From Nitrosarchaeum sp. (GTDB lineage: Archaea > Thermoproteota > Nitrososphaeria > Nitrososphaerales > Nitrosopumilaceae): a stretch of 64,000 nucleotides of DNA. Shown piece by piece: positions 58,557 to 61,109 of this stretch. Both the position numbers and the translations under genes were made by a program. The notes below the pieces were generated by a model that was not told where the DNA came from, searched no databases, and saw nothing but the letters and a program-made list of their open reading frames with translations. Within the stretch, counting starts at the first letter, position 1. Every line of letters starts with the position of its first letter. Where the stretch lies: the NCBI GenBank assembly GCA_021414105.1, contig JAIOPB010000034.1:1-64000 (forward strand). The letters are read 5' to 3'.

Positions 58557-59267
58557 TTGACAGAAGAATTTACCGATGAGGAAAAAAAAGGTTTCTACAA
58601 GGCAATTTACTCAAGGAGAGACGTCAGATCTCATTTTACCTCAAAAACTATCGAAGATGATGTTTTATCTAGAATTCTAAATGCTGCACATCATGCACCA
58701 TCTGTTGGTTTTTCTCAGCCATGGAATTTTATTTTGATAAAAGATATCACTACAAAAAAGAAAATCAAAGATTCTTTTGAAGAAGAAAAAAATCGCTCAT
58801 CAAAATTAGTTGAAGAACCAAAGAGAACAAAATATCTTTCATTTAAACTCGAAGGAATTTTAGAATCACCTATCAATCTATGTGTAACATATGATCCTTC
58901 AAAGTTTGGTCCATTTGTAATTGGCAGATCAAGTATTCCTGAGGCAGGATTGTACAGTGTATGTTGCGCTATTCAGAATTTGTGGCTTGCCGCAAGAACA
59001 GAAGGAATTGGACTTGGTTGGGTGAGTATTCTTTCAAATGATACTCTCAAAGAAGTTTTAGAATTACCAGAATATGTTGTTCCAATAGCATATCTTTGTT
59101 TAGGATATGTGGATGAATTTGCACAAAAGCCAGATCTTGAAACAGCAGGATGGCTTCCAAGACTAGATCTTAAGGATGTTGTATATTTTGAGAAATGGCA
59201 AGATACAAAAAATATAGGCTGGAATCAAATACAAGAAATGATCAAAACTAATCTTGATTACGCTTAA
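58557..59267 (+). CDS. bluB: 5,6-dimethylbenzimidazole synthase BluB
   Basis: A 236-residue flavin-dependent enzyme of the nitroreductase fold, starting at TTG 58557. It splits FMNH2 with oxygen to give 5,6-dimethylbenzimidazole, the lower ligand of cobalamin. BluB features are YSRRDVRSHF (residues 13-22), HAPSVGFSQPWNFILI and GLGWVSIL. Ammonia-oxidising archaea make true B12, which fits. An alternative call of a general nitroreductase is less likely because of the RRDVR and GWVS motifs. Confidence 0.9.
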   Translation: MTEEFTDEEKKGFYKAIYSRRDVRSHFTSKTIEDDVLSRILNAAHHAPSVGFSQPWNFILIKDITTKKKIKDSFEEEKNRSSKLVEEPKRTKYLSFKLEGILESPINLCVTYDPSKFGPFVIGRSSIPEAGLYSVCCAIQNLWLAARTEGIGLGWVSILSNDTLKEVLELPEYVVPIAYLCLGYVDEFAQKPDLETAGWLPRLDLKDVVYFEKWQDTKNIGWNQIQEMIKTNLDYA

Positions 59268-59291
59268 ATAATTACAAGTATTTTTTTTGCT

Positions 59292-59385
59292 GGGCTTGTG
59301 GCGCAGAGTCATTTTGGACGCGAAACTTGGATAGCGCAGTAGCCTCCTAAGTTACAGGTCGAGGGATCGAAGCCCTCCAAGCCCG
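59292..59385 (+). tRNA. tRNA-Arg (CCT) with intron in the D-loop
   Basis: The acceptor GGGCTTG pairs perfectly with CAAGCCC, and the T-arm GAGGG..CCCTC is intact. The anticodon stem is GTAGC/GTTAC with loop CTCCTAA, so the anticodon is CCT (59346-59348), decoding AGG. The D-stem halves GCGC (59301-59304) and GCGC (59334-59337) are parted by 29 nt instead of about 10. Removing 59307-59325 (19 nt) restores a normal AGCTTGGATA D-loop. The extra bases can fold as CGC:GCG and GTC:GAC helices around AGA and AAA bulges, a relaxed bulge-helix-bulge. The T-loop ATCGAAG has A at position 54. CTTAAATAAT at 59263-59272 fits a promoter and T runs follow. Confidence 0.9.
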
Positions 59386-59396
59386 TTTTCTTTTTT
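59386..59396 (+). terminator. T-tract terminator after tRNA-Arg
   Basis: TTTTCTTTTTT immediately follows the tRNA-Arg discriminator base, a typical archaeal U-tract end. Confidence 0.5.
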
Positions 59397-60623: not shown

Positions 60624-61109
60624 CTATTTGTTTTTTGTTTTACTTCCAAAGGCCAACATCTTAAGATTAGCAAGTTCTGTTTTTAATGATTCAATTTGAA
60701 CTAGAGTTTGCAGATTTGAAATTTCTTGATTTAATCTTTCAATTTCACTGTCCTTTAGTTTTACAGTTTCTTTGAGTTTGTTTAGTTCTCCAGATAATTC
60801 ATTTTGTGCCGTTTTAATTTCAGTAGAACTAACTTGTTTCCCATTTGCAGTGTAAATTTGAGTGGTTTGTAAATTACTCAAGCTTTTTTTTTCGTTATGA
60901 CTCATATGTGTTTTAGATTTATGCATGTAATCATTACTCTTTTGAGAAATCCAACATGTAAAAGTAAGGAACCAAGTTATTGATACAGCCATAATAAATA
61001 CAAAATTTAGGATGGGTGCAAAAGCTATAAAAAAAGGCCATAGTCCTGTAAGCGTTGCCGCAAAGACTCCAGTAACCATTGTTGCTAAATGGTTTCCAAG
61101 ATATCCCAT
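60624..61109 (-). CDS. Membrane protein with C-terminal coiled coil
   Basis: A 161-residue protein with two hydrophobic helices (about residues 9-26 and 28-54) and a C-terminal heptad-rich segment (about 95-150, with LNKLKETVKLKDSEIERLN). The coiled coil is predicted cytoplasmic or extracellular depending on topology, which the sequence does not settle. No family is recognised. The gene is single, 84 bp from the next gene upstream. Confidence 0.65.
   Translation of the reverse strand: MGYLGNHLATMVTGVFAATLTGLWPFFIAFAPILNFVFIMAVSITWFLTFTCWISQKSNDYMHKSKTHMSHNEKKSLSNLQTTQIYTANGKQVSSTEIKTAQNELSGELNKLKETVKLKDSEIERLNQEISNLQTLVQIESLKTELANLKMLAFGSKTKNK

Follow-up and report, generated by a model that had tools for sequence, protein, structure and literature searches.

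A predicted relaxed bulge-helix-bulge intron in the D-loop of an archaeal tRNA-Arg(CCU) gene and its distribution among ammonia-oxidising archaea

Introns in the D-arm of archaeal tRNAs have been confirmed experimentally in tRNA-Glu (UUC and CUC) of Sulfolobus tokodaii and tRNA-Thr (UGU) of Aeropyrum pernix, in which the borders fall between the second and third residues of the bulges (PMC4307357). Besides these examples, D-arm introns have been reported in Caldiarchaeum (PMC3293823) and are standard in reviews (PMC6379350; PMC12397907). Regarding the D-loop introns in tRNA-Glu of Methanopyrus kandleri, intron-retaining reads show that they are removed late (PMC3695527). The bulge-helix-bulge (BHB) model of tRNAscan-SE 2.0 was trained on non-canonical introns of Thaumarchaeota, and 107 such introns were counted in the genomes of this phylum (PMC8450103). 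That set comes from the same phylum as the DNA described below; the main text, in the part that concerns it, gives the count and not the genes, and the 107 introns probably include the family of the present one.

In the present study, we analyzed a 64,000-nt stretch of DNA from Nitrosarchaeum sp. (the window), in which a tRNA-Arg(CCU) gene is interrupted by 19 nt in the D-loop. The insert resembles the introns of S. tokodaii and A. pernix in its location in the D-arm, its relaxed BHB, and borders that fall after the second bulge residue, but differs from them in the tRNA, the lineage, and the intron sequence; moreover, those introns are cut by the organism's own EndA (PMC4307357), whereas splicing is inferred here from DNA. 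As in tRNA-Glu of M. kandleri, a D-loop intron lies next to a BHB, although the D-loop intron of M. kandleri is the second in its tRNA and the one described here is the sole intron of its tRNA. The features of the locus are as follows; a slash marks a predicted cut.

59264-59270, plus strand: TATA-like CTTAAAT, approximately 28 nt upstream of the gene start
59292-59385, plus strand: tRNA-Arg(CCU) gene, cloverleaf read directly; 94 nt with the intron, predicted mature length 75 nt
59292-59306, plus strand: 5' exon, positions 1-15 (acceptor 5' strand, U8, G9, D-stem GCGC, A14, G15)
59292-59298 and 59378-59384, plus strand: acceptor stem, GGGCTTG and CAAGCCC, read directly
59301-59304 and 59334-59337, plus strand: D-stem, GCGC and GCGC, halves 29 nt apart
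59301-59304, plus strand: exon half of the putative BHB central helix, the D-stem 5' strand GCGC, with 59302-59304 paired
59305-59307, plus strand: putative 5' bulge AG/A, predicted cut after 59306
59307-59325, plus strand: predicted 19-nt intron AGTCATTTTGGACGCGAAA, inserted at 15/16; empty sites in relatives
59308-59319, plus strand: putative intron hairpin GTC-ATTTTG-GAC (helix h')
59320-59323, plus strand: intron half of the putative central helix, GCGA (GCGC, GCGT or GTGC in relatives)
59324-59326, plus strand: putative 3' bulge AA/C, predicted cut after 59325
59326-59385, plus strand: 3' exon, positions 16-73, from direct reading and ortholog comparison
59339-59343 and 59351-59355, plus strand: anticodon stem, GTAGC and GTTAC, read directly
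59346-59348, plus strand: anticodon CCT in the loop CTCCTAA, read directly
59361-59365 and 59373-59377, plus strand: T-stem, GAGGG and CCCTC, with loop ATCGAAG
59385, plus strand: discriminator G, read directly
59386-59395, plus strand: T-rich tract TTTTCTTTTT, likely terminator, directly 3' of the gene

Direct reading of the sequence showed four intact stems (acceptor, D, anticodon, and T) and no encoded CCA. The D-stem halves are as far apart as the earlier note had stated because 19 nt are inserted between A14-G15 and the remainder of the D-loop. The same note had warned that simple gene finders may miss such a gene, and this was the case: ARAGORN reported only a tRNA-Val over the window, and the Rfam tRNA model gave a partial match at 59320-59377, the score of which (25.2 bits) was below the cut-off of 29. 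Since generic tRNA finders miss the gene, annotations of ammonia-oxidising archaea may list the tRNA that reads AGG as missing.

A gene that is missed by tRNA finders may be decayed or disrupted by an insertion; however, the intact stems, exons that are conserved across two families, the conservation of promoter-like and terminator-like signals, and the finding of no second CCU gene among the Arg-like matches of complete relatives argue against a pseudogene, and we rejected this reading, to which we assign a next to negligible probability. Upstream of the gene, TTAAA, TTATA or TTTAA was found at -32 to -18 in 115 of 138 distinct loci, mostly at -28/-29, versus 19% in shuffled upstream sequences, and at least four T residues were present within the first 7 nt 3' of the gene in 92 of the 138. 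A scan for bacterial promoters and terminators found nothing, as expected for an archaeon. Based on searches with Rfam and other models, the Arg-like matches of the five genomes G000, G014, G009, G020 and G023 contained a single CCU gene per genome, and the tRNA-Arg(CCU) gene is, therefore, probably the sole gene dedicated to the decoding of AGG. A tRNA-Arg(UCU) is present in the same genome and might read AGG by wobble.

Orthologs were collected with the 94-nt query, by pattern matching in GTDB genomes, and with a covariance model that spans 57 positions of the 3' exon. Parsing by script gave 137 distinct genes, of which 111 carried an insert and 26 did not. The comparison of the locus among relatives, which the earlier note had proposed, thus yielded both inserted genes and exact empty sites. 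The insert was always located between positions 15 and 16 in the 111 genes, and its length ranged between 14 and 39 nt. Empty sites were found in L023/L254, L024, L082, L116, Nitrosocaldus, Cenarchaeum SB0675, NAT229, and others. An intron-free ortholog of the same family (genome G023, L023/L254) reads GCGC AGCTTGGATA GCGC, and the window without 59307-59325 is letter for letter the D-arm of this gene; the 5' exon is also identical in L023 over GCGCAG. The prediction that removal of these 19 nt leaves a standard tRNA consequently agrees, in the D-arm, with the sequence of intron-free orthologs.

The insert had been suggested to fold into a relaxed BHB with a CGC:GCG helix followed by GTC:GAC, and both elements are present (59302-59304 with 59320-59322 and 59308-59310 with 59317-59319, respectively) and have comparative support. 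The central helix of the window has three of four pairs because G59301 faces A59323. Next to the 3' bulge, we observed at most one pair of an outer helix, between G59300 and T59327. The strict hBHBh' motif, with four central pairs and helices on both sides, was not found; with an outer helix of one pair at most, the predicted motif corresponds to the relaxed HBh' form of PMC6379350. Sequence and comparison place a 3-nt bulge at each border, AG/A and AA/C, and the cuts are predicted after 59306 and 59325 because published borders lie between bulge residues 2 and 3 (PMC4307357).

The earlier note had named AGA as the 5' bulge, which we retained, and AAA (59323-59325) as the 3' bulge, for which AAC (59324-59326) is preferred because the standard cut then yields a 19-nt intron and the D-loop of intron-free relatives. 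Since the window has just three Watson-Crick central pairs, AAA may be drawn as the 3' bulge, and the intron would then be cut elsewhere, for example, as 18 nt at 59307-59324. However, GCGC and GCGT in relatives allow all four central pairs to form and thereby set the bulge one nucleotide further downstream, and an 18-nt cut leaves one nucleotide more than the D-loop of L023, which the 19-nt choice matches exactly; we consider a border other than the one proposed to be very unlikely. The BHB geometry of the window arose in 1295 of 200,000 shuffles of the insert (0.65%), a rate at which one sequence alone is suggestive and not proof, such that the comparative data decide. Energy folding of the precursor was uninformative and gave no preference for the BHB (-27.2 kcal/mol) over the cloverleaf (-27.2 to -28.8 kcal/mol); it favored an unrelated minimum at -34.8 kcal/mol, and the program was equally unable to fold the mature tRNA correctly.

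Pairing between the insert and positions 10-13, the 5' strand of the D-stem, is possible at four of four positions in 53 of the 111 inserted genes and at three of four in 58, and the four paired bases of the insert sit just before the 3' border in every case. The 5' bulge is AG/A or AG/T in all 111 genes and is followed by the hairpin inside the insert, the first three pairs of which are kept in 106; when the 3' strands were re-dealt among the genes in 2000 trials, the mean was 61 and the maximum 71. The letters of the hairpin vary (GTC:GAC, GCC:GGC, ATC:GAT, GTT:AAC, CCT:AGG, CTG:CAG, and others). In 13 chosen divergent sequences, two-sided changes occupied 14 cells versus a mean of 3.7 in shuffles, and 93% of the cells were paired, versus 51% or less when the partner was slid by 1-3 columns; because of the relatedness of the sequences and the prior knowledge of the hairpin, the exact shuffle figures are not to be read as probabilities. 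The clearest individual example is L090 (Candidatus Nitrosopumilus limneticus), in which C at exon position 13 is replaced by T and the facing intron base G by A, a compensated change that provides direct evidence for the exon:intron helix.

An insert that is shared by the whole genus and by most of the family may instead be retained, giving a mature tRNA with an enlarged, hairpin-bearing D-loop. This fits the covariation badly: the central helix and the mature D-stem are mutually exclusive, but 111 of 111 genes retain the central helix, which covaries in L090. Furthermore, the length of the insert is free (14-39 nt), and close relatives are intron-free with an ordinary 10-nt D-loop. We rejected the retention of the insert, which appears highly improbable. 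The 111 orthologs, the empty sites, and the compensatory exon:intron change together support a tRNA-Arg(CCU) gene with a 19-nt D-loop intron, the boundaries proposed for it, and a relaxed BHB, as far as this may be judged from DNA.

We estimate a probability of approximately 0.96 that the 19 nt are a BHB intron at 15/16 that is cut by an alpha2beta2 EndA and joined by RtcB, after which the D-arm refolds; the cutting, joining, refolding, and expression are inferred. Before splicing, the D-stem 5' strand would pair not with its mature partner but with a decoy in the intron that copies the 3' strand of this stem. This pairing would form the central helix, adjoining the AG/A bulge and the small intron hairpin, and the 3' border AA/C would be loop-like without an outer helix. 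The alpha2beta2 tRNA splicing endonuclease would then cut at both predicted sites, RtcB would join 59306 to 59326, and the freed D-stem would refold to give a mature tRNA-Arg reading AGG.

An endonuclease of the strict motif is expected to cut such a precursor poorly because of the central G.A mismatch and the lack of an outer helix, and only (alpha-beta)2 and epsilon2 endonucleases have been described as removing relaxed motifs efficiently (PMC6379350, a review). Two PF01974 genes were found in the genome of the window. The 178-aa product aligns with the catalytic subunits of Aeropyrum and Pyrobaculum, with Tyr, His, and Lys being kept, and its K35-P36-K37 are aligned to K44-P45-R46 of Aeropyrum, residues reported to be important in the Crenarchaea-specific loop. 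The catalytic His is absent in the 187-aa product when aligned to the Methanocaldococcus enzyme, and we take this protein as the putative structural (beta) subunit. The genome appears to encode both EndA subunits, alpha and beta, as would be expected for a broad-specificity (alpha-beta)2 enzyme, which is consistent with the view that a D-loop intron demands an endonuclease of this type. One full-length RtcB was also found (E = 4.4e-179).

Regarding the distribution of the intron, family counts were made by hand, and a phylum sample was used outside the order. The insert was present in 66 of 69 sampled genomes of Nitrosopumilaceae, the exceptions being G023, G103 and G261, and further intron-free members of this family are the named loci L082, L156, L160 and L174. 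Genome G112, presumably that of N. maritimus SCM1, carries the insert (L309). In Nitrososphaeraceae, 21 genomes had the insert and five did not, with four of genus g52 being left out of the count; all five belong to genus g50, and these losses (L230, which we take to be Nitrososphaera gargensis, and L363-L366) coincide with a D-stem of GCTC:GAGC instead of GCGC. The insert was absent in three of three Nitrosocaldus genomes. Outside the order, one of 39 parsed genes (L325) had an insert at 15/16, and the pattern scan added L187 (Bathyarchaeota) and L191 (Hecatellales).

This distribution is most simply read as a single gain that preceded the divergence of the two ammonia-oxidising families, with later losses; repeated gain at a favored site is a possible alternative. 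The implication in the earlier note that the intron is uncommon does not hold in this clade, in which it is nearly universal, and D-arm introns are an established kind. The present intron may well be in GtRNAdb already, and as an example of archaeal tRNA splicing it is well supported and not surprising. What is added here is the distribution: near-universal in two ammonia-oxidising families, absent in Nitrosocaldus, with losses in a small number of clades, and rare elsewhere. Non-canonical tRNA introns are often regarded as elements of fast turnover, and the present family, with one fixed site, independent losses, and its presence in 66 of 69 Nitrosopumilaceae and 21 Nitrososphaeraceae genomes, is well suited to studies of how introns are retained and lost. 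The intron may be kept for a function, such as a checkpoint of folding or modification in which the decoy D-stem is removed before the D-arm forms, which would explain its near-universal retention across the two families if true; we regard this as unlikely, and the same low probability applies to archaeosine at G15, adjoining the splice site, forming after the removal.

The 15/16 introns in the tRNA-Arg(CCU) genes of L187 (3543-3650, minus strand), L191 (4249-4350, plus strand), and L325 (G333:C54, from another class) look unrelated to that of the window, and most of their relatives in their groups are without a 15/16 intron. Other inserts were noted in tRNA-Arg genes. In tRNA-Arg(CCU) of L176 (Candidatus Micrarchaeota archaeon Sv319), an insert lies between the acceptor and D-stem (GGGCCCGTATGCGCAAGAAATTGCGCCGGGAAGCGCAG...) and is possibly another intron position, and L362 (G416:C72) has a D-arm insert after GGATA in its tRNA-Arg(CCU). 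The tRNA-Arg(UCU) of L235 (G043:C21) carries a long D-arm insert with CTCAGTTTGG repeated on both flanks.

The A54 in the T-loop (59366), to which the earlier note had drawn attention, is present but was dropped as a special feature because the loop ATCGAAG is common to tRNA-Arg(CCU), tRNA-Arg(UCU), and tRNA-Met(CAU) of the genome. The same T-loop was also observed in tRNA-Arg(CCU) of Nitrosopumilaceae and Nitrosocaldus, and that of Nitrososphaeraceae is TTCAAAT.

In G000, the genome of the window, several other long tRNAs of 98-124 nt on contigs C50, C19 and C63 (L054, L056, L058, L059) have apparent anticodon-arm introns. A D-loop intron also seems to be present in the initiator tRNA-Met on contig C59 (approximately 60870-60970, minus strand; L060), which reads ...GGGGAAGCCAG/ACTCTTTAGGGCTAA/GTCATCCCGG..., in which AGCC of the exon pairs with GGCT of the intron and the bulges are AG/A and AA/G.
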